Assembly: GCF_024462775.1 (NCBI RefSeq)
Contig: NZ_JANGCE010000007.1
Span: forward strand, 1-64,000
Origin: Butyricicoccus faecihominis
GTDB lineage: Bacteria > Bacillota > Clostridia > Oscillospirales > Butyricicoccaceae
DNA length: 64,000 nucleotides
Reading direction: 5' to 3'
The position numbers and the translations under genes are program-made. Shown here in pieces: positions 1 to 37,825 of this stretch. The notes beneath the pieces are model-generated. The model saw only the letters and a list, made by a program, of their open reading frames with translations. It was not told the origin of the DNA and searched no databases. The first letter of the stretch is position 1. Each line of letters opens with the position of its first letter.

Positions 1-435
1 CTCCTTTCGGCCTGTACTAAAGACTTACGATTGTTCGGCCCTTCCCGAAAAAAAACCTTCGGTACTATGGCCTCTGCTGACTTCTTACAGTTCGTTGTTA
101 CTGCGGATTTCGGATTTTTTTCCTTACTTTCCGTCTGTAAGACCTCCCCGGGTAAGAACAATAACCTTCGTTTCATGCTGCCGCCACATTTACCGTGCAG
201 GATTCGGGTAGCATTGGACTTCGTTTTGTTGAGCAAACTCGTCCGTCCTTGCACGGCCTTATATGTGGTTTCTGTTCGTCGGCCCGAAACTTTGCCCGCC
301 AAGGCTCCTCGCATTGACATCCGGCTTCCTTCAGATTCCACCTCACGATGGACACCCTTGCCTTCGGCTAACGCTTCCTGCTACCGAGCGCGTAGTGGTC
401 TTTCACCACCTAGTTATTGCCCATGCCGGGCGCAC
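1..435 (-). mobile_element. Group II intron, 5' part (likely class C); maturase lies off the left edge
   Basis: On the minus strand the sequence begins at 435 with GTGCGCCCGGCATGGGC, the GUGYG-type 5' end of a group II intron, and goes on with the structured ribozyme region expected of domains I-III. At the left edge, minus strand, it ends in a Shine-Dalgarno-like AAAGGAG (1-12), so the reverse transcriptase/maturase gene should start just outside the window. Open frames on the plus strand here are antisense to the ribozyme and are not genes. The 5' end lies 2 nt from a strong terminator hairpin, which is the known insertion preference of class C introns. The family call rests on recalled 5'-end sequence plus this context; subclass is inference. 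Confidence 0.75.
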
Positions 436-24329: not shown

Positions 24330-24615
24330 AAAAAAAGCCCATGCCTCTACATATAAGAGACAAAGACTTTACAAACTCTGCGGTACCACTCTTTTTGCCG
24401 CATGCAAAACGCACACGACCACTTAACCTGACCCGATAACGCCGGTCACGCGGTACGGCTTACTGAAAGGGCGCGCCCTTTGTTCATCCGACTGCTCTCG
24501 GGGAGACTTTCGCACTTTCCTTCCTCCGCCGTCTTACACCAACCGACGGCTCTCTATAGGATTCCAGACGCTACTTTTCCCGGTCATCGCACTTTGCTCG
24601 CTATTCAAATGTACT
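24330..24615 (-). promoter_or_regulatory. T-box leader of the ilv operon
   Basis: On the minus strand the leader shows the stem I distal motif AGAGAGCC...GGTTGGTGTAAGACGGC and the T-box AGTGGTACCGCA (24378-24391). After it comes an intrinsic terminator (24330-24368: a 12-position stem with one mismatch, then seven Ts). Uncharged tRNA binding would favour the antiterminator. A k-turn-like GA pair and the loop text GAAAGUCUC place the specifier at a GUC (Val) or CUC (Leu) triplet; I cannot decide which by eye. Both fit the operon's product. Confidence 0.92.
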
Positions 24616-27287: not shown

Positions 27288-28673
27288 TTATATTAATTGC
27301 TCCACGGTCTCTTGTTCTTCTTCCTCTTCCGGGCGCATGATGCTGACATTCACCCATTCGCTTTGGTTTTGGGGAAGCATGGCGGCCGCGCGGAACATGC
27401 CGGTCTCATCGTACTCCACACGGAACATGCCGCCGTATTTGTGCGCGATTTCTTTCACCTGCCGCAGGCCAAAGCCGTGCAGGATACCGGCTTTGGAGCT
27501 TTGAAATCCCTTTTTCGTTTTTACCGGCGCCTGTTCGCTTGGATTTTCCACCATAATGACAAAAAAGTTTTGTATCAGCTTGGTACTAAGACGCAGCCTG
27601 CGATTGGCTGCGTCTTGATTTTTTTCACACGCCTCTATCGCGTTATCCAGCAAATTGAATAGAATCGTGCAAACATCGTTTCGCGGGGTATCGCACGGGT
27701 CGGGATATTGTATGTTGGCCCACACCTTAATGCCGGCATCCCGCGCGCGGTGCAGCTTGGCGTTCAGCAGCGCGTCTACCGCGCCGTCCTTCGTGGTGAT
27801 CCACTGACCCGTTTTGCCGGTGGTGCTTGTAATGCCTTGCACATATTGAAACGCCTTTTCTGCTTCGTTTCGTTCGAGCAGACCGGAAAGCGCCTGCATA
27901 TGGTTGTTCAGGTCGTGCCGCAGACCTTGGATGTCATGGTACAAAGCATCCATAGCTTTTTGCTGTTCAAGCTGCATTTCCGCTTTTACCAGCTTAGCGC
28001 TTAGTTGATTCCTGCGAGCGGTTTCCCGGGCAAGGCAGACAAAAAGAATAATAAAAACAGCAAATAGAACCAAAAAGAAAAACGGCAGCGCCATTATTAA
28101 TTCTTGTGTATTATGTTTTGCGCCGTTTACGACATAGGAACACACTGCGACAAAGCTGCCAAGCAACAAAATGCCTAAGCAAAGAAACACCCATTGAAAC
28201 AACCGAATGTGATCAATCTTTAAATCTCTCAGCCGATACCGCACAAGACCGCAGATAAGCACGAGGAAAATACAAAGCAGCACGTGTGATTCCACAATAC
28301 CAAAAATCATTACAAAGGGATCGTTCGGCGTGATCTGTTTGTGAAAAATCAGAGAATATGCCGAAGGCACCGTCATTTCGCAAACATAGACAAGCATGAA
28401 AAAAACCGCAGGCAACACAATGGAAATACCCAATTTATGCCTAGAAATATACCAGCAAATAGCCACGTCGCATAAAAAAATGATCACTGATTTCATAAAG
28501 AACGGAAGAACAGAAAGACTGAGCGATGCGGATAGTAACGCGTTTAGGATTACATATATAATTAAATTTCGTAGTAAGTTTTGCCGCCTGACCGGATGAA
28601 GCGCCACGCAATAAAGCAGCATAGATAAAACCGCATCCAGCAGCGAGGACGTAATCATTAACACCACCTGCAT
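27288..28673 (-). CDS. AgrC-like sensor histidine kinase (GHKL, HPK10 type)
   Basis: 461 aa from ATG 28673, whose codon overlaps the regulator stop as TAATG. Residues 1-220 form six membrane segments, the peptide-sensor domain. The DHp region contains LRHDLNNHMQALSGL, with the phospho-acceptor His. The ATPase part has NLLDNAIEACEK (N box) and HGFGLRQVKEIAHKYGGMF (G box). This is the family that senses cyclic autoinducing peptides. A candidate peptide gene lies divergently at 29531. The C-terminal acidic tail (MRPEEEEEQE) is odd. Confidence 0.9.
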   Translation of the reverse strand: MQVVLMITSSLLDAVLSMLLYCVALHPVRRQNLLRNLIIYVILNALLSASLSLSVLPFFMKSVIIFLCDVAICWYISRHKLGISIVLPAVFFMLVYVCEMTVPSAYSLIFHKQITPNDPFVMIFGIVESHVLLCIFLVLICGLVRYRLRDLKIDHIRLFQWVFLCLGILLLGSFVAVCSYVVNGAKHNTQELIMALPFFFLVLFAVFIILFVCLARETARRNQLSAKLVKAEMQLEQQKAMDALYHDIQGLRHDLNNHMQALSGLLERNEAEKAFQYVQGITSTTGKTGQWITTKDGAVDALLNAKLHRARDAGIKVWANIQYPDPCDTPRNDVCTILFNLLDNAIEACEKNQDAANRRLRLSTKLIQNFFVIMVENPSEQAPVKTKKGFQSSKAGILHGFGLRQVKEIAHKYGGMFRVEYDETGMFRAAAMLPQNQSEWVNVSIMRPEEEEEQETVEQLI

Positions 28674-29398
28674 TAAGACCACCGTCCCTCTTCCGTGATC
28701 AGCTTGTCCGCAAACGCCTTCTCGATTGCGGTAAAATAGGATTCACTGACGGGAATCTTTGCTTGATTATCTAAAATCAGCTCTTTCGCATTAAGTACCC
28801 TTATTCGATCGATATTGACTAGATAGGAACGATGGCATTGTATAAATATTCGCTGCGGTAATTCTTTTGCGAGATCCGATATGTTTTTGCGGCAAGATAA
28901 GTCGCCGTCATCACAAACAATTTTGCAGGTATGGTTCCCGGCTTCCGCATACAAAATATCTCCAAAAGGTACAATCCGCCACTCTCTGGACTGCTTAATT
29001 TTCAGACTTCCCTGCTCACGTAATTTTACATATGCCATTGCATTTTCCAAGCAAGGGATACAATCCGCTTCCTGTACCGGCTTTAGCAAAAACTGAAAAG
29101 CGTGCACCTTGTATCCGTTTACCGCGTAATCTTTAAAGTTGGTGGTAAAAACAATGGGCACATCCTTGGAAACGGTTCGTATAAACTGTGCCGTTTCAAT
29201 GCCCGATCGGTGCGGCGTTTCCACATCCAGAAAAAACACATCAGTTTGCATGACGCTTTCTCCGCTAATATCAAGCCCTGAGGAAACCGCAAACAAACGA
29301 ACCGCGATTTTTATCTTTTTCGCCGCACTCTCTATCACCCGCTGCAAATGCTGCTTTTGGGCTTCATTGTCTTCCAAAATCGTAATATTCAGCTTCAT
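28673..29398 (-). CDS. AgrA-like response regulator, LytTR DNA-binding domain
   Basis: 241 aa from ATG 29398. The receiver domain (1-120) has an acidic pocket (LEDNE) and the phospho-acceptor Asp in VFFLDVETP. The conserved Lys is in LLKPVQEAD. Residues 135-235 are a LytTR domain (LKIKQSREWRIVPFGDILYAEA, FIQCHRSYLVNIDRI), which binds direct repeats. It is co-transcribed with the kinase from a promoter at 29483-29512. The kinase-regulator gene order is reversed relative to staphylococcal agr. Confidence 0.9.
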   Translation of the reverse strand: MKLNITILEDNEAQKQHLQRVIESAAKKIKIAVRLFAVSSGLDISGESVMQTDVFFLDVETPHRSGIETAQFIRTVSKDVPIVFTTNFKDYAVNGYKVHAFQFLLKPVQEADCIPCLENAMAYVKLREQGSLKIKQSREWRIVPFGDILYAEAGNHTCKIVCDDGDLSCRKNISDLAKELPQRIFIQCHRSYLVNIDRIRVLNAKELILDNQAKIPVSESYFTAIEKAFADKLITEEGRWS

Positions 29399-29482
29399 AT
29401 ATGCACCCGCCCCCAAATTTCACGTCAAAAAAATGGGTTTTCAAGACAAATCTATTTTCTTTTTCCTTTAATCTGCTAATAT

Positions 29483-29512
29483 GATTATATCATTAGACGG
29501 ATAACAATATCA
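29483..29512 (-). promoter_or_regulatory. Promoter of the agrA/agrC-like pair
   Basis: Minus strand TTGATA (29507-29512), an 18-nt spacer and TATAAT (29483-29488). It lies in the 132-nt divergent gap before the peptide gene. No clear LytTR repeat pair was found by eye. Confidence 0.7.
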
Positions 29513-29530
29513 AGGAAAGCTGGTGGAAAA

Positions 29531-29671
29531 ATGAAAACAAAGTTTTCATGGTTGAAAGGGTTAATGGCTTCTGCCGCCTGCATTGTCAGCGCGGTAGCGG
29601 TACTGGCCAGCCAAACGCCCTGCTTAGGTCAGTACTATCAGCCGGAGGTGCCGAAAACGTTGAAAAAGTAA
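29531..29671 (+). CDS. AgrD-like cyclic autoinducer peptide precursor
   Basis: 46 codons, ATG 29531 to TAA 29671. The N-terminus is amphipathic and basic (MKTKFSWLKGLMASAACIV), followed by a hydrophobic stretch, then ASQTPCLGQYYQPEVPKTLK. Counting from Cys32, the seven residues LGQYYQP precede EVPKTL, the same spacing as in S. aureus AgrD (Cys, seven residues, EVPKEL). This places a five-residue thiolactone ring at Cys-Leu-Gly-Gln-Tyr. It lies divergent from the AgrC/AgrA-like pair. No AgrB peptidase is encoded in the window. Weak upstream SD (GCTGGTGG). Confidence 0.8.
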   Translation: MKTKFSWLKGLMASAACIVSAVAVLASQTPCLGQYYQPEVPKTLKK

Positions 29672-29806
29672 ATGTATAGGAAGAGAGAAGTGAATCCAAT
29701 GATGATTGAAATACGGTAAAGAAAAACACTTTTGGCACTATGCAAGGTAACATATAAATAAGCATTGTTACTATGGCATAAGCTTATTGAAACGGGAGGA
29801 AATATT

Positions 29807-30310
29807 ATGACGAGATATAAAAAACTATTCGCATTGACACTAATACTTGGTTTCACGCTCATTGTCCCGTCATTTGCAGCCACTATCAATGGTGGATATT
29901 CCAATGTTACTACTATGATCGGACTAAACGATTATGGATGGACAGCATTTGATATAACAGCAAAGCTAGCAGAAACCTATGAAAAAGAATCAACCCGTGT
30001 TAAATATTCCAGTCGATTGGCCGATGTCGAAATTTTATGTTCGAGACCTGATAACGGAGCTACATTAACTGTTCTTCCAATCCCCAGACATTATGACCGC
30101 AGCACCAATAAGACAGTAAAATCTTTTAGTATGTACAATGAATCTACATATCTGCCCGGTAATATTTCTCAATGGTATGTCAAGCGTAATTCCGATGTTG
30201 TATATTATTCAGCATCTAATAATTATGCCTGTGGTTATGGATTTAGTCTCTATGCAGACGGGTGCATTAATCCATATGCAGACACCATTACTGTCAATCT
30301 TAGCGTATAA
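29807..30310 (+). CDS. Secreted protein of unknown family
   Basis: 167 aa from ATG 29807, with GGGAGGA 6 nt upstream. A signal peptide (KKLFALTLILGFTLIVPSFA, cleavage likely after SFA at about 25) precedes a Tyr/Ser/Asn-rich beta-type mature part with two central Cys and a C-terminal CGYGFSLYADGC segment, then VNLSV. Base composition is AT-rich, unlike the biosynthetic genes. It lies 135 nt after the autoinducer gene and could be in the same transcript. Function unknown. Confidence 0.75.
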   Translation: MTRYKKLFALTLILGFTLIVPSFAATINGGYSNVTTMIGLNDYGWTAFDITAKLAETYEKESTRVKYSSRLADVEILCSRPDNGATLTVLPIPRHYDRSTNKTVKSFSMYNESTYLPGNISQWYVKRNSDVVYYSASNNYACGYGFSLYADGCINPYADTITVNLSV

Positions 30311-30327
30311 GAACGGAGGTCTCTTGT

Positions 30328-30930
30328 ATGTTCAAAAAAACAAGATTAGTTGGTATTTCGGCTCTTATGATAGCGTCAATTTTAATTACAGCCACAGCAG
30401 CCACTTATACTAACTCTCGCAGCACAGCGGAGCAAATGGAGCAAAGTCGAATTTGGGCACAAATCGATACAGCACCAGCCCCTCAAAATGATGAAATACT
30501 GATTGAAGGCAAGAATGTTACTGTGTATAAAGATGAAACAAATCGAATTGCCGAAAGATATGCCGCTGGAGACGTAGATAATGGTGAAGAACTGGCAATA
30601 AGCTATATTCTTCGACGTGAAGTTCTTTATAATGCGGGCATTGATAATAATTTTACAGCAACTGACGCTGAGGTGCAGGCAGTGATTCAACAAAATGAAG
30701 AAATGGCTAAAAATGCCATTGGCAGAGAGTTTTTTGATGAGTATTTAGAGACTGCAGGCATCACGGAGCATGAGTATTGGATCGGACAATCTGATAAATT
30801 CAAAAAAGAAATTGTAATAGAGAAATATCTATCAGATATTAGAGAGCGAAACAATATTTCTCCCGAAGAGTGGAATGCCTTTGAAGATAATTGGGTAAAA
30901 AGTCTCATTGAAGCTGAGGAAATTAGCTAA
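30328..30930 (+). CDS. Exported SurA/PrsA N-terminal-like protein
   Basis: 200 aa. An N-terminal signal/anchor (LVGISALMIASILITATAA) precedes a helical domain with YILRREVLYNAGIDNNFTAT, DAEVQAVIQQNEEMAKNA and SDKFKKEIVIEKYLSDIR. The pattern recalls the SurA_N helices of foldases, but no parvulin PPIase domain follows. A chaperone-like role for the neighbouring secreted protein 17 nt upstream is possible. SD ACGGAGGTC is strong. The region 30931-31405 downstream holds repeat elements and no gene. Confidence 0.7.
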   Translation: MFKKTRLVGISALMIASILITATAATYTNSRSTAEQMEQSRIWAQIDTAPAPQNDEILIEGKNVTVYKDETNRIAERYAAGDVDNGEELAISYILRREVLYNAGIDNNFTATDAEVQAVIQQNEEMAKNAIGREFFDEYLETAGITEHEYWIGQSDKFKKEIVIEKYLSDIRERNNISPEEWNAFEDNWVKSLIEAEEIS

Positions 30931-30984
30931 AAGGCAAAGGGGACGAAAGGACGGTCCGAAACCACTGAAAAAGGCGCAATTAAA

Positions 30985-31056
30985 GACAAGGGGATGGTTC
31001 TTTCGTCCTCTTGTCTTCTCTTGCCCTTTACGTGCCTTTTTTCACGTCATTTCAGG
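30985..31056. repeat. Tandem partial duplication of the MITE-like element end
   Basis: About 72 bp, from GACAAGGGGATGGTTCTTTC to TTCACGTCATTTCAGG, that repeats the first part of the full element starting at 31057 with a few changes. The break comes exactly where the full copy continues with TATGTTCCACG. Confidence 0.75.
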
Positions 31057-31280
31057 AAGACAAGGGGACGGTTCTTTTGTCCTCTTGTCTTCCCTTGCCC
31101 TTTACGTGCCTTTTTTCACGTCATTTCAGGTATGTTCCACGACAAAAGCATTTCCAAACCGATCGTTTGGGATTATAATAATAAATATCCTGTCTGACAT
31201 AGATTACAGGCAAGGCGGTGGCTCTACTGTTCTCCCCAGCATCAATACAACAAGACGAAAGAACCGTCCCCCTGTCTTCT
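31057..31280. mobile_element. MITE-like element, copy 1
   Basis: About 224 bp. The left end GACAAGGGGACGGTTCT is inverted at the right end as AGAACCGTCCCCCTGTC. The core contains TTTACGTG, CATTTCAGGTATGTTCCACG, GATCGTTTGGGATTATAATA and GGCAAGGCGGTGGCT. Copies 2 (32338) and 3 (36307) share the whole core. No coding capacity. The ends resemble sequences that flank Y1 (RAYT-type) transposases in Clostridia; this is recall, not a search. Confidence 0.8.
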
Positions 31281-31405
31281 CTCTCGTTGCTGCGCCTCCC
31301 TTACAAACGTTTCTCGTTCTGACTTTACTGTTTTCTCTTTCCACGGCATAAGCAATTCTCCTTTTCCCACTTATACCGTTATTTTACTCCCAAACTGTAT
31401 ACCAT

Positions 31406-31831
31406 GTGCTTGGACAAACTGTTTACTATGTGACTGGGCTATACATCTCTGGCACTTCCGGTTCTGTGCCGCAACGTCTTTCTGTTAACGGCTGGATGAA
31501 TAGCGGCGGGGATTATCCCTATGAGATTTCAACAACCAGTGTGACTCGCGACAGTTCTTACGGTTTTGGTTTTGCCCTACAAGATAGCAAAGATGGTGTT
31601 CTACATATTGGCGAAAAATTTGGCGGTGTGGCACAGTATAGCACCTCGTTTGCTAACTTCCATGGACTTGCAACTTCCTATTATGTTCATACGTGGAATT
31701 CTGGCAAGGTAAAGTCTGTGACATTTAACGCAAATGTAGGTATTAGCGGTATTGGCGGTGGCATATCTATTACGTACGAAAATGTAGATTATACTTTTTC
31801 TCTTGGTTCAGGAGGTCAAGCCTCTTTTTAG
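31406..31831 (+). CDS. Secreted-type protein lacking a signal peptide, probably 5'-truncated
   Basis: 141 aa from GTG 31406; the frame stays open back to 31352, reading ILLFPLIPLFYSQTVYHV before the GTG. The body is a beta-rich Gly/Ser/Tyr sequence (YGFGFALQDSKDGVLHIGEK, NVGISGIGGGISITYENVDY), like an exported protein, but there is no start with a signal peptide and no SD. A MITE-like element ends 125 nt upstream and may have removed the true 5' end. It resembles the 29807 protein in style only. Confidence 0.5.
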   Translation: MLGQTVYYVTGLYISGTSGSVPQRLSVNGWMNSGGDYPYEISTTSVTRDSSYGFGFALQDSKDGVLHIGEKFGGVAQYSTSFANFHGLATSYYVHTWNSGKVKSVTFNANVGISGIGGGISITYENVDYTFSLGSGGQASF

Positions 31832-31925
31832 CTAAAAAACTTAATACGCTAATGGTGACGGGGAGAATGTGTACTATATCCAAAACTGCCTCCCTAATCT
31901 ACCAAAGCGAAAAGGACTGGTTGCC

Positions 31926-32165
31926 ATGAAGCTATCCAAACTTTTTCTCATAACGTTTTTGGCCATGCTTTTCTTATTGTCAGTTTGCATTTTAGGCTAT
32001 GCTATCGCTTCTATCTCCTTTGCAATTTATCCGACTAGCGGTGGATTTGATCCGTATTTTGAAGAGCCAATGGTATGGTGCGTAACCAAAGTGTCTATTG
32101 GGCTTTCTATAGTATTCTTTGTTGCAACACTGGTTTCCTTACTTGTTGAATCCAAGAAAAAATAA
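31926..32165 (+). CDS. Small two-segment membrane protein
   Basis: 79 aa from ATG 31926. Two hydrophobic segments (LFLITFLAMLFLLSVCILGY and VSIGLSIVFFVATLVSLLV) are joined by a short loop, FAIYPTSGGFDPYFEEP. The C-terminus ESKKK is basic and cytoplasmic. Family unknown. The frame upstream of ATG 31926 (to 31869) is probably untranslated. The following 420 nt to 32588 hold a promoter-repeat and MITE copy 2 and no gene. Confidence 0.65.
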   Translation: MKLSKLFLITFLAMLFLLSVCILGYAIASISFAIYPTSGGFDPYFEEPMVWCVTKVSIGLSIVFFVATLVSLLVESKKK

Positions 32166-32196
32166 CGATCAAGGCAAGTGGACGGTTCTTTATGTC

Positions 32197-32247
32197 TTGA
32201 CACACACCCTCTCCCGCGCTATATTAGCGTTGGAGGGGGTATGTGTT
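32197..32247 (+). promoter_or_regulatory. Palindromic repeat containing a promoter, copy 1
   Basis: TTGACA (32197-32202), a 17-nt spacer and TATATT (32220-32225). The spacer and the sequence after the -10 are inverted arms (ACACACCCTCTCC with GGAGGGGGTATGTGT, GCGCTA with TAGCG), so the dyad is centred on the -10. The same 55-bp unit recurs at 34068. Confidence 0.75.
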
Positions 32248-32337
32248 TTATGCCCAAATCGACCAAAGTATTAACGAAAATAAAACATATCTTCAAAATC
32301 GAAGGCCAGAGAACGATTTGAAACCAAACCTGTCAAA

Positions 32338-32556
32338 AGACAAGGGGACGGTTCTTTTGTCCTCTTGTCTTCTCTTGCCCTTTACGTGTTTTTTCACGTC
32401 ATTTCAGGTATGTTCCACGACAAAAACATTTCCAAACAGATCGTTTGGGATTATAATAATAAATATCCTATCTGACATAGATTACAGGCAAGGCGGTGGC
32501 TCCACTGTTCTCCCCGGCATCAATACATCAAGGCGGAAGACCATTCCCCTGTCTTG
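32338..32556. mobile_element. MITE-like element, copy 2
   Basis: Same ends and core as copy 1, with a 2-bp shorter CACGTGTTTTTTCACG segment and a degenerate right end (AGACCATTCCCCTGTC). It lies between the promoter repeat at 32197 and the gene at 32589. Confidence 0.8.
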
Positions 32557-32588
32557 TGGGAAATCTATAATAAAAGGTCTGAACTGTT

Positions 32589-33017
32589 ATGAAAACGGGG
32601 GTTAAAACTTATTGCGGGTTCATATTATGCAGTCTTGTTTTACTTTTACTGACGGCCGCTTTTTATCCGTACGATATTTTTTCCAATCATCAGACGGGTT
32701 TTTCCTTTCCGCTTTTTGCAATGATCGCAATTATTATATCCTGCGCTGTTCTGTTCAGCACGAAACTACGTCATTGTTTAAAAGAATGTGGATTGGAATG
32801 GAATTTTTTCGGCGGGTTAGCCTTCTTTATTCTTCTAAATTGTCTAGGTGTGGTGGTAAACTACCTTACAAACCGCTATTTTTTTGAATCGGGAGGAACC
32901 TTTATAGCTTCTGCGTATAAAAGCACATATACTGTATCTTTTATAATTTTTATCTCTGTTTTAGAGTGGCTTTGCTTCCTTCGTAATCCCTCACATGATA
33001 ATCATGATCCTCATTGA
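32589..33017 (+). CDS. Four-segment membrane protein of unknown family
   Basis: 142 aa. Hydrophobic segments at about residues 9-27, 38-58, 73-92 and 112-130 (for example FILCSLVLLLLTAAFYPY and GGLAFFILLNCLGVVVNYL). His/Asp-rich C-terminal tail NPSHDNHDPH. SD-like GGTCTGAACTGTT is weak. AT-rich. It is one of five small orphan membrane proteins in this island with no recognisable homology between them. Confidence 0.65.
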   Translation: MKTGVKTYCGFILCSLVLLLLTAAFYPYDIFSNHQTGFSFPLFAMIAIIISCAVLFSTKLRHCLKECGLEWNFFGGLAFFILLNCLGVVVNYLTNRYFFESGGTFIASAYKSTYTVSFIIFISVLEWLCFLRNPSHDNHDPH

Positions 33018-33080
33018 TGCTTTCCAGTAGAAAACACGCTGCTGTCCTTTTTCCTCAACCCAGAGGGGGTAAATATTATT

Positions 33081-34560: not shown

Positions 34561-34608
34561 GCAAAACGACATTAGGATACCGATCGCCTTGTGGCTAGGA
34601 GGGCGCAA

Positions 34609-35568
34609 ATGAGAACTTTCTTTAAAATACTCAGTGTAGCCTTTGTTGTGATGATTTGCATTGTACATAGTCACGCTATATCCTCAGAGCAAGCAGAAAT
34701 CTATTATCAGTATTTGCGTGTACAGGGGTATCCGATTGTTTGCTTAAACGAACAAGGCGAACAAGTACCTATGCTACTTTACAAAGGTACAAACTATATC
34801 CCTATTCGTACCACAGGTGAATGGATGGGGAAAACCGTATCTTGGAATGGTAAAACAAATACAATTTCGCTATCAGGTAGCATTGACCCGACTTATCACA
34901 CGAAGAGTGCCAAAAAATCTTATAACTATGATGAGCATTTTGACAAAATTGATATCACACTTGCTCCGCAAATTGTTGTCTTAGTGGATGGGAAAATACA
35001 AAACTTTTATGATGCAAACGGCTCAGTCGTTTATCCGCTTATTAGCCACGGAACCACATACCTGCCGCTTCGCAGTATTGGTAAACTAACGGGTATGGAA
35101 ATTGCATGGCGACAAACATTTTATTCAACAGGCGGTGCTCAACTGATGTATCTACGCACTCCGCTAACGAGCGATCAAAAAGCCGAGTGTGAATCCTATC
35201 TTTCGGGGCTGGAGAAAAGATTGAGCTTCTTTGAATACATTCTTTACCATGATATTCAAGATGTATTGCGCGACTCACCAGAACAGGTAAGTGTAGAATA
35301 CTGGAAAACTACGTTACCGCGTTTGCGACAGGCATTTAACGCAATTAAAGATTACGCTCCGCCTACTGTGCCTCTGCTGGAGTACGGTTATCAAGAAATG
35401 TGTGTAACTTCGCAATTATATGATAGCGAACTTGATCTTGCCACTCAAGCTTTGGAACAAGGTGATCTGAACCAAGTGTCCAATATGTGTTTTGCTAGTG
35501 GTGTGAGCCTTGGTGATAATGTTGCCTATATGCAAAACGTCTATTATCAACCGAATACCAAAAATTAA
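34609..35568 (+). CDS. Secreted stalk-domain (copper amine oxidase N-terminal-like) protein
   Basis: 319 aa from ATG 34609, with AGGAGGG 5-6 nt upstream. A signal peptide (ILSVAFVVMICIVHSHA) is followed by two copies of the stalk domain: VPMLLYKGTNYIPIRTTGEWM (about 50-100) and VYPLISHGTTYLPLRSIGKL (about 135-185). The repeated G-T-x-Y-x-P-x-R is the hallmark. These domains mediate cell-surface attachment or assembly in Firmicutes. The C-terminal third is helical and unknown. Confidence 0.82.
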   Translation: MRTFFKILSVAFVVMICIVHSHAISSEQAEIYYQYLRVQGYPIVCLNEQGEQVPMLLYKGTNYIPIRTTGEWMGKTVSWNGKTNTISLSGSIDPTYHTKSAKKSYNYDEHFDKIDITLAPQIVVLVDGKIQNFYDANGSVVYPLISHGTTYLPLRSIGKLTGMEIAWRQTFYSTGGAQLMYLRTPLTSDQKAECESYLSGLEKRLSFFEYILYHDIQDVLRDSPEQVSVEYWKTTLPRLRQAFNAIKDYAPPTVPLLEYGYQEMCVTSQLYDSELDLATQALEQGDLNQVSNMCFASGVSLGDNVAYMQNVYYQPNTKN

Positions 35569-35583
35569 TAGCAAGATATAAAA

Positions 35584-35618
35584 AGACAAGGGGACACGTT
35601 AACCGTCCCTCTGCCTTT
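35584..35618. repeat. Collapsed MITE-like element (termini only)
   Basis: AGACAAGGGGAC directly followed by a few bases and ACCGTCCCTCTGCCTTT: both termini of the 31057-type element with the core gone. The next 60 nt (35619-35678) read KQQALERIQSGLALDDLPW and stop, an orphan C-terminal fragment of an unidentified protein. Confidence 0.65.
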
Positions 35619-35712
35619 AAGCAGCAAGCACTTGAAAGAATCCAGAGTGGCTTAGCTCTTGATGATCTTCCTTGGTAATTACTCCGTTAATAGCATTCAC
35701 AAGGGGCTTAAT

Positions 35713-36285
35713 ATGAAAAAAGAAGTGCTCATAGTTCTTTCCCTTTTGTTAATCATTGTTGCAGCATTTGTCTTTCTGTTTAATGGGAACACCCAAAGTG
35801 CTCAGCAAAAAAGTATAATGAATCCATTTCAAATTGAAATTAGCGAACCGCACATCATTCAAGAAGCTAAACAGCATTTTAATGACGGTAAGCTAGTTAC
35901 AGATAGTGGTACTGAACAGCGTTTACAGTTTACAATTTCTATATTAAACACTTCGGAATATGATTTTTCAGAAACTTGGTTTGAAGCTTCCTTGAACGAC
36001 GAGGTGAAACCTTTTATTGCGAGTCAAGTCATTAGTTATCGAAGCGATAAATTTGACGTAACTTCCGAAGCTAAGGCGGATTTAGTAAACAATAAGAACA
36101 ATTTAAAGATTACTGGTTTTAATCATAATTGGAGTTTGTTACTTACCACGCCAGATGATTTAGCTGACTATAATGGTATGACCCCTAATGAAATTGTAAA
36201 TGCCCTCCGATCGATTCATGTACAAATCCATTGGGATAGTGGCACACAAGAACAGGATATTCCGATTTCGGTTCAGTATGAATGA
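35713..36285 (+). CDS. Membrane-anchored extracytoplasmic protein
   Basis: 190 aa from ATG 35713 (AAGGGG upstream). One N-terminal membrane segment (VLIVLSLLLIIVAAFVFLF) has no lipobox. A soluble domain follows with the beta-rich pattern FQIEISEPHIIQEAKQHF, LQFTISILNTSEYDFSETWF and the C-terminal IHVQIHWDSGTQEQDIPISV, consistent with an Ig-like or NTF2-like fold. Family not recognised. The gap to 36604 holds MITE copy 3. Confidence 0.68.
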   Translation: MKKEVLIVLSLLLIIVAAFVFLFNGNTQSAQQKSIMNPFQIEISEPHIIQEAKQHFNDGKLVTDSGTEQRLQFTISILNTSEYDFSETWFEASLNDEVKPFIASQVISYRSDKFDVTSEAKADLVNNKNNLKITGFNHNWSLLLTTPDDLADYNGMTPNEIVNALRSIHVQIHWDSGTQEQDIPISVQYE

Positions 36286-36306
36286 GGTAAGGACAAGGTG
36301 ATATTA

Positions 36307-36528
36307 AAGCCAAGGGGACGGCACTTTCGTCCCCTTGGCTTTCCTTGCCCTTTACGTGTTTTTTCACGTCATTTCAGGTATGTTCCACGACAAAAACATT
36401 TCCAAACAGATCGTTTGGGATTATAATAATAAATATCCTGTCTGACATAGATTGTAGGCAAGGCGGTGGCTTCACTGTTCTCCCCAGCATCAATGCAACA
36501 AAACGGAAGAACCGTCCCTCTGTCTTTG
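36307..36528. mobile_element. MITE-like element, copy 3
   Basis: CAAGGGGACGGCACTTTCGT at the left end, AGAACCGTCCCTCTGTC at the right. The core is shared with copies 1 and 2, including the 2-bp shorter CACG segment of copy 2. Confidence 0.8.
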
Positions 36529-36604
36529 GTGCTATTTCCATCGATACTCAATATGAACGACACATGGTTATTAAGTAATTCCATTTATATTTTCGGAGGT
36601 AATT

Positions 36605-37339
36605 ATGAATAAGCAGCTTTCATGGTTAGGGCCATATGCATCATTTATAGTCATCTATATACTTTCTATATTTTTATTGCGCTTGTTCCCTTCACAGGCC
36701 GCAATTCTATTTTGTGCGCCGCTTTCCATGTCCATTGCTGGCGCACTTTTTGTAAGAAAAACCCGCTTTCCTTATAGCAAACTGTTTTCCTTTCAACGTA
36801 TATCCTTTCAAATCCTTTTATACAGTATAGTTTTTGGGATAGGTCTTATTTTAGTTGGACAGTTTAATGTTATATTTGGACAAACTGCCGTTATTGGTTT
36901 CGACTCATCTAACATGATTGCTTTTCTATTAATTCTTATAGCAACGCCCATTATTGAAGAATTCTTTTTTAGAGGTATCATATTCCATAGAACGCTCGGT
37001 TACTTTACCCCTCTTGTTGCAATGATCCTTACTTCTGTTCTATTTGCTCTACTTCACGGTATGCAAAAATTTCTCTATGCATTTCTAGCCGGTATCGTTT
37101 TCTCTTGTCTTGCATACTACACGCAGTCGATGTTATCTGCAATCATTGCACATCTACTTGCCAATGTTGGCCCCCTTTTACTATGTACACTCTTTCCCAG
37201 CTTAACAGTAGTTTTTCTCCCAGATACCGGATCAACTTATATCGGCATGAGAATCGTTGCCGCGCTGACTGGCTTACTTATTTGTGTAGTGGGCATACAG
37301 CGTCTAAGAAAGCTAATGCGGCCCCAGCCCGATCTTTAA
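36605..37339 (+). CDS. CPBP-family intramembrane metalloprotease
   Basis: 244 aa, with CGGAGGT before the ATG. About eight membrane segments. Motif 1 is IEEFFFRGIIF (the catalytic EExxxR), motif 2 is SVLFALLHG and motif 3 is LSAIIAHLLANV, the CAAX-protease/bacteriocin-processing signature. Members process peptides or prenylated proteins, or give immunity to self-made bacteriocins. It is the only clear membrane protease in the island that also holds an AgrD-like peptide without AgrB. A functional link is speculative. Confidence 0.88.
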   Translation: MNKQLSWLGPYASFIVIYILSIFLLRLFPSQAAILFCAPLSMSIAGALFVRKTRFPYSKLFSFQRISFQILLYSIVFGIGLILVGQFNVIFGQTAVIGFDSSNMIAFLLILIATPIIEEFFFRGIIFHRTLGYFTPLVAMILTSVLFALLHGMQKFLYAFLAGIVFSCLAYYTQSMLSAIIAHLLANVGPLLLCTLFPSLTVVFLPDTGSTYIGMRIVAALTGLLICVVGIQRLRKLMRPQPDL

Positions 37340-37387
37340 CCGATAACTGAAAGCGCGTGTTGAAAATAAAAGAATGTTCCAAATCCT

Positions 37388-37540
37388 TGTCATTCTGAGG
37401 AGCGAAGCGACGAGACCGTTGTCCTCTATCCTCGACTCGCCGCCGTGCGGCGAATAGGAGAGAGAGTCTCGCGCGAATGCGCGGATTTTACGTGAATCAC
37501 GCGCGTTTACGCGAGATTCTTCACTTCGTTCAGAATGACA
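37388..37540. repeat. Long imperfect palindrome with TGTCATTCTGA ends
   Basis: TGTCATTCTGAGGAGCGAAG at the left and CTTCACTTCGTTCAGAATGACA (last 22 nt) at the right are inverted. The middle has nested hairpins (AGAGTCTCGCGCGAATGCGCG, CGCGCGTTTACGCGAGA). This type of repeat is common between genes in gut Firmicutes. The rest of 37340-37825 shows no gene. Confidence 0.75.
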
Positions 37541-37825
37541 TACGGAATATTCTTTTATTTTGCAACGCGCGCTTTTCATCATTCATTTTATCGCTAGAAC
37601 CAGCATCCCCGCAGTCCAGATCAAAACGCTTTATCGCCGCTCAGCCGTAATTCGAGATCAGTTTATTTTTGCTTTCCTTTTGCGCTGGCAAGCCTTCTCG
37701 TATTTTATATTATATTTTCACCGCTTTGTTGCTTGCTACCATAATATTTTAAAGGTATATTGATAGTAAGAAAGAAAAATGCTACAGTACCGTATTTTAT
37801 CGCAACAAGAAATTCGAGGGATGTT

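Follow-up and report, generated by a model that had tools for sequence, protein, structure and literature searches.

In Staphylococcus aureus, agrB, agrD, agrC and agrA form a single operon, agrBDCA, and strain groups are described as differing in AgrB, AgrD and AgrC (PMC8919982). C. difficile carries an agr2 locus of the order agrACDB and a partial agr1 locus in which agrD stands with agrB (PMC3754575). In C. perfringens, agrB and agrD lie together with the VirSR sensor elsewhere, and a five-residue thiolactone ring is the likely signal (PMC7492741). For the C. thermocellum AgrD Clo1313_2818, encoded away from any apparent agr operon, a five-residue cyclic peptide was confirmed by LC-MS/MS; it is a lactone closed through Ser, and the sections of that report cited here name no AgrB, AgrC or AgrA candidate and propose no partner locus (PMC5322536). 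On the regulatory side, LytTR operators consist of 9-bp direct repeats with a 12-bp spacer (PMC2766830, PMC2714321). Repeats of this form precede the promoters of the peptide-controlled plantaricin (pln) regulon (PMC2714321), and 10-bp repeats with an 11-bp spacer those of the peptide-controlled sil regulon (PMC2766830), with no AgrD-type cyclic peptide described in the cited portions of either paper. The AgrD, AgrB, AgrC and AgrA families are already known, as is the existence of an unlinked AgrD (PMC5322536). A literature search at the level of titles and beginnings of abstracts, mostly outside subscription journals, returned no description of one AgrB serving several unlinked AgrDs.

Here we examine an agr locus in a 64,000-nucleotide stretch of Butyricicoccus faecihominis DNA (contig NZ_JANGCE010000007.1, positions 1 to 64,000; hereafter the window), which appears to belong to a quorum-sensing circuit divided over several places in the genome. 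The locus resembles the S. aureus system in its AgrD spacing, in the types of its AgrC and AgrA partners and in having strains that differ in the receptor, but the agrB that we assign to it is unlinked, on contig C28, with 99.5% identity in the pair of strains compared. The C. difficile agr2 order is that of the C28 operon, and of its counterpart in a second genus (genome G045), minus agrD; in contrast to agr1, the window agrD keeps agrC and agrA and lacks agrB. Like Clo1313_2818, the window agrD lies apart from an agr operon, yet its ring would close through Cys and its putative AgrC and AgrA partners are adjacent. Unlinked circuit parts and a probable five-residue thiolactone are shared with C. 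perfringens, whereas the linkage is reversed, agrD here standing beside the sensor. As in the pln and sil regulons, direct repeats precede promoters of what would be a peptide-controlled regulon, but here an AgrD lies beside the operator.

An AgrD precursor beside a divergent AgrC/AgrA-type pair

The initial annotation described positions 29399-29671, a span comprising agrD and the agrA-agrD intergenic region, as holding an AgrD-like autoinducer gene. The agrD ORF (29531..29671, plus strand) has 46 codons and a stop. Its product matches TIGR04223, the model for AgrD family cyclic lactone autoinducer peptides, at 35.6 bits (E 7.4e-9), and since this is well above the cut-off of 19 the match is more than chance. 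Our AgrD subfamily model A4 gives 101.3 bits, a score to be read with the window AgrD itself among the sequences in that model; a Pfam search of the 46-residue product found no match. The Cys-to-EVPKxL distance, first noted as staphylococcal in spacing, is indeed +8, equal to that of the S. aureus AgrD-I sequence printed in PMC10196373. Judged by family profile and by the register of Cys and tail, the window peptide is a genuine AgrD precursor. S. aureus AgrD-I is cut between M32 and D33, that is after Cys+4 (PMC10196373). From this register, and from the five-residue rings of C. perfringens and C. thermocellum, we infer a thiolactone ring Cys-Leu-Gly-Gln-Tyr (codons 29621..29635, plus strand), the same ring as proposed at the outset. 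When viral contigs were scanned with the AgrD subfamily, 23 pattern matches were obtained and 0 were confirmed.

The neighboring genes on the minus strand encode an AgrA-type response regulator (28673..29398), with receiver and LytTR domains over the Pfam cut-offs for Response_reg and LytTR, and an AgrC-type GHKL sensor kinase (27288..28682), with HATPase_c_5 over its Pfam cut-off and with RHD and FNLLDNAIEAC motifs. A GHKL kinase with a membrane N-terminus, the membrane character being read from the sequence by inspection, together with a LytTR regulator, is the make-up of an AgrC/AgrA pair, so the divergent pair of the initial annotation is upheld by Pfam. The NCBIfam equivalog models score far under their cut-offs (HisKinAgrCStaph, 49.9 bits vs 500 for the kinase; quorum_RR_AgrA, 43 bits vs 400 for the regulator), and the two proteins are therefore relatives of AgrC and AgrA, not equivalogs. 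A sigma-70-type promoter is predicted for agrA-agrC (29484..29513, minus strand; TTGATA-18-TATAAT, 11 of 12) as a pattern match only, in a region with nine such patterns against a mean of 7.8 in shuffles; agrCA would run from this promoter of its own. Scanning contigs of other genomes with the window AgrC alone gave no relative, and with AgrC alignment A1 only distant relatives, the top one at 28% identity among the best 80 of 162 confirmed. A phage search with the window AgrA returned 65 records, every one below 60% identity.

An agrD-less operon encodes the probable processing enzyme

PF04647 (AgrB) has no match in the window, in keeping with the first reading, nor elsewhere on its contig (107381 bases, of which the window is the first 64000). 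Across the genome it has three, all on other contigs: C23, C8 and C28. A genome devoid of AgrB is thereby ruled out. The canonical linkage of agrB to agrD is absent for the window agrD, both here and in the one-contig genome of a same-species strain, G004.

The three AgrB loci are of two kinds. On C23 and on C8, each agrB adjoins its own agrD. C28 holds an agrA-agrC-agrB operon, with an 8-nt gap between agrC and agrB, followed by an ORF that by eye looks hydrolase-like; no agrD was found there, even when profile matches up to E 10 or 5 were admitted. In its motif GGYHAxTPxRC, the C28-type AgrB preserves a Cys 7 residues after a His, the spacing of H77 and C84 in S. aureus AgrB (PMC10196373). 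A further locus, on C17, is laid out like the window, with agrD divergent from agrC-agrA and without agrB. A search of the genome with TIGR04223 at E up to 10 gave seven matches, of which those on C8, C54 (the window's contig) and C23 are over the cut-off; the C17 AgrD falls under it at 17.7 bits, and three more are weaker still. The C17 AgrD also matches model A3, which contains the C17 peptide, and its G004 counterpart passes TIGR04223 at 31.6 bits.

We consider it likely that these loci form a split agr system in which an AgrB, most probably that of C28, matures the window AgrD in trans. The C28 AgrB would cut and cyclise the precursor to the Cys-Leu-Gly-Gln-Tyr thiolactone, the AgrC beside agrD would sense the cyclic peptide, and AgrA would bind 9-bp direct repeats separated by a 12-bp spacer, activating agrD itself and nearby cargo ORFs. 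The C17 locus, a parallel agrD/agrCA module, would rely on this AgrB too. A distant AgrB is favored because the C28 operon has no agrD, because its kinase belongs to the same clade as the window kinase, because the two components co-occur, and because G045 has a single AgrB and a single strong AgrD that are unlinked. The initial annotation had left maturation to a distant AgrB or to a different protease; the first of these is supported, and the second is the weaker, with one genome discussed below in its favor. If one AgrB does serve several AgrDs in trans, signalling channels could be added or swapped without a new processing enzyme, and agr searches that require adjacent agrB and agrD would miss such systems.

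It is also conceivable, if unlikely, that maturation of the window AgrD falls to the AgrB encoded in the linked agrBD locus of C23, or in that of C8, and that the C28 AgrB has another role. The tail of the C23 AgrD, QPEVPQQLKR, resembles that of the window AgrD, and operators worded like those of the window also lie near C23. However, the C23 AgrD is one residue shorter between Cys and QPEVP, the C8-type AgrB is shortened in G004, and G045 holds a C28-type AgrB alone; the C23 and C8 AgrBs are 28.9-30.5% identical to that of C28, as against 47.6% for the G045 AgrB. The shortening in G004 is at the N-terminus (L053 6231-6626; an ORF of 131 residues matching profile positions 66-167 only), and the agrD there is retained.

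Window and C28 kinases fall within one clade

Within the genome, the closest relatives of the window AgrC and AgrA are the C28 kinase and regulator. phmmer gives the window AgrC 353 bits against C28, 309-332 against the C17 type and 297 against G045, with the next kinase in the set at 92; the window AgrA scores 231 bits against C28, 179 against G045 and 170-173 against the C17 type, with the next at 85. In a maximum-likelihood tree of 15 kinases, the seven AgrCs of G045 and of the window, C17 and C28 types come together at 100/99; branches within this group have less support (85/88, 86/85), and long outgroup branches drew a warning from the program.

The same components coincide across genomes. 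Of 394 genomes from the order, three carry the window's AgrD subfamily by model A4 at E 1e-8 or better. Model A5 for the C28-type AgrB, at E 1e-20 or better, matches seven of the 394, and its top three are A4's three, at 1e-104 or better, with the fourth at 3.8e-26; both models were built from sequences of the very genomes in which both proteins occur. The AgrC subfamily is present in 3/87 genomes of the family, again these three. Since two of these genomes belong to a single species, the co-occurrence represents two lineages, in two genera.

The third genome, G045, belongs to another genus of the family, and its sole AgrB match sits in an agrA-agrC-agrB operon that lacks agrD. At E 0.001, TIGR04223 gave no match in G045; the broader model A3 finds one strong AgrD (48.7 bits; next, 14.9) of the window's subfamily, about 505 kb from the only AgrB of that genome. 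No agr-type gene was seen in the 18 kb around it.

Among the 87 family genomes, at least 13 have TIGR04223 matches, a lower count because the G045 AgrD is missed, and 12 have PF04647 matches, one of them under the cut-off. An AgrD without a PF04647 match occurs in G047 (rated 100% complete), G048 (69%) and G081 (72%), so AgrB-less AgrDs cannot be dismissed in general. They lend some weight to the idea, which we regard as improbable for the window, that maturation or activation of the peptide depends on some non-AgrB protease. Against it, all three genomes among the 394 that hold the window's AgrD subfamily also hold the C28-type AgrB. The G047 AgrDs, moreover, belong to a different type; one of them is found at the edge of a contig, and the AgrB of G047 may have diverged or be missing. 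The two G047 AgrDs (L158 5813-7035; L157 49-240) are near-identical, and downstream of one lies an ORF whose start is signal-peptide-like.

The sensor differs between strains and the C28 operon does not

Strain G004, of the same species, has four AgrDs over the cut-off, three AgrB matches and an agr layout as in the window genome. At the window locus, the flanking DNA is about 98.8% identical in two long blocks, and AgrD is 91% identical in amino acids with identical ring residues. G004 is the sole relative found with this locus, and its AgrCA pair is accompanied by the Cys peptide; relatives carrying the pair without such a peptide, which would have counted against the AgrD assignment, were thus not encountered.

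AgrC is far less uniform. In 40-residue bins, the first three of the window AgrC are 70, 60 and 80% identical to G004, the next eight 98-100% and the C-terminal bin 71%. For the C17 AgrC, the first six bins are at 50-88% and the remainder at 98-100%, and for the C28 AgrC all are at 98-100%. Synonymous divergence between the two strains follows the same pattern: codons 1-120 of the window agrC have dS 1.26 and dN 0.18, against dS 0.028 and dN 0.008 for codons 210-430. In the C17 agrC, dS is saturated in the sensor and is 0.23, with dN 0.006, at codons 210-430. agrA also has raised dS, 0.33-0.38, at the window and C17, and agrA, agrC and agrB of C28 have dS of 0.05 or less. Between strains, the sensor part of AgrC is thus a mosaic at the window and C17 agrD loci but not at C28, and synonymous divergence this high suggests that a diverged allele has replaced it. 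At C17 the AgrD ring differs as well (CEGKF, CDGQF); because the window ring is the same in both strains despite the sensor difference, a ring change beside the sensor change is seen only at C17. If the C28 AgrB does act in trans, the receptor would diversify while the processing enzyme stays fixed, separating two constraints that the S. aureus operon locks together.

A ring that stays constant while the sensor differs, at a locus without agrB, could also mark a relic, an agrD that lost its agrB and no longer functions. We hold this to be very improbable, because the agrD, agrA and agrC frames are intact in both strains, a predicted operator and -10 precede agrD in both, and an intact agrB is present elsewhere.

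Downstream of agrD the strains diverge in content. Window positions 29654-33061 (about 3.4 kb) and 34603-37543 have no match at the G004 locus, where another ORF with a signal-peptide-like start follows agrD. About 1.5 kb of cargo at C28 is likewise absent from G004. Two window ORFs downstream of agrD, both on the plus strand with signal-peptide-like starts and without matching DNA at the G004 locus, are 29807..30310, with no Pfam match, and 30328..30930, with SurA_N_3 below the Pfam cut-off. AlphaFold predictions from single sequences of two cargo ORFs gave mean pLDDT values of 37 and 41, too low to be of use.

A repeated predicted operator with a 21-bp period

Scanning the agrA-agrD intergenic region with an S. 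aureus AgrA consensus gave nothing convincing, and a general repeat listing of that region gave none. The operator wording was instead derived from repeats seen in C17 and C28 and then searched for. Upstream of agrD, a predicted LytTR operator (29418..29447, plus strand) has two mismatches to the consensus pair and is followed 32 nt on by a predicted -10, TATGAT (29480..29485, plus strand). Both elements occur in both strains, the G004 operator (L049 11023-11052) having one mismatch. Three more operators are predicted on the plus strand, each within a repeated unit and with TATAAT 30 nt on: 31114..31143 upstream of ORF 31406-31831, 32392..32421 upstream of a membrane-type ORF, 32589-33017, and 36362..36391 upstream of ORF 36605-37339, which is Rce1-like (CPBP; PF02517, E 4e-20). 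These predicted operators have the LytTR layout of 9-bp repeats and a 12-bp spacer. Just upstream of the last three are GGGGACGG-type hairpin repeats (window 31064, 32344 and 36314), which resemble REP elements.

Fifteen stretches of this genome, selected around agr and kinase loci, were searched for TTTCACGTC followed, across a 12-bp spacer, by a TTTCACGTC-like word, with three mismatches allowed. The pair occurs nine times at the 21-bp period (window 29418, 31114, 32392 and 36362; two at C28; three at C23), and no other period between 12 and 40 has more than three. Shuffled TTTCACGTC words reached four or more pairs in 1/200 trials on the window, L011 and L014, as against six for the true word. 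A G004 control of 400 kb (20 evenly spaced stretches, a tenth of the genome) held 0 pairs at the 21-bp period and five at other periods. The best -10 lay 30-32 nt after the operator in 13/13 listed sites, with offsets of 20-44 nt permitted and ties resolved nearest to 30, and 11/13 had five or six of the six TATAAT matches; the 13 comprise 12/14 rows of the operator search, near-copies and G004 orthologues included and periods 19 and 23 omitted, plus the C17 site added by hand. A consensus-free scan for a repeat with a -10 gave 38 at period 21, whereas nine other periods each gave 10-25. Repeats of different wording with the same 21-bp period lie upstream of agr genes on C17, C8 and C23; the C17 wording differs from that of the window and C28 operators. 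In two G045 stretches, before agrA and before agrD, no 21-bp-period repeat was found, only one 20-bp-period pair with two mismatches.

Not all copies are independent. Over the 45 nt that follow the operator, identity is 89-100% among the three cargo copies of the window and one from C23; the C23 pair and G004 site L052 resemble them at 67-78%. Six of the nine operator copies are thus probably one dispersed repeat family, which leaves few independent cases, about four. The copies at the window agrD and C28 are no more than 64% like any other, and that of C17 no more than 33%. We considered whether the operator is part of a dispersed repeat, and this could be rejected in part, the copies at the window agrD, C28 and C17 standing apart.

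A structured stretch beside the C28 operon

A candidate small RNA of 153 nt (L011 4005-4157, minus strand) adjoins the C28 agr operon behind a perfect operator (L011 4199-4228, minus strand) and a weak -10, TACAGT. Its predicted fold has -61.8 kcal/mol vs -33.9 +/- 3.9 for shuffles (z -7.1), and z is -3.4 without the last 40 nt; for two controls taken from behind window operators, z was 1.4 and 0.3. A terminator scan of the region did not list the final hairpin. The 153-nt stretch is identical in both strains and has no further copy among the loci compared. Rfam gave nothing above threshold for the candidate and one match far beneath its threshold, and we treat the stretch as a candidate RNA only. 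In G004 the operator before it is intact; the C28 cargo operator is degraded and the cargo gone.

Taken together with the split system proposed above, these elements allow a wider arrangement that we put forward tentatively and with some doubt. One near-invariant AgrB from an agrD-less operon might mature several unlinked AgrDs, each having a receptor pair of its own in which the sensor half diversifies independently, with 21-bp-period operators, some spread by a dispersed repeat, tying together agrD, cargo ORFs and the AgrB locus, where an operator-driven and highly structured small RNA might act in an RNAIII-like manner. Our confidence in this network was lowered because of the dispersed repeat family and the degraded C28 cargo operator in G004.

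At Rfam gathering thresholds, no agr RNA was found in the window. Elsewhere in the window, matches to group II intron domains D1-D4 lie at 38-352 (minus strand), and a T-box leader lies at 24353-24596 (minus strand), upstream of an ORF that by eye is acetolactate synthase-like.
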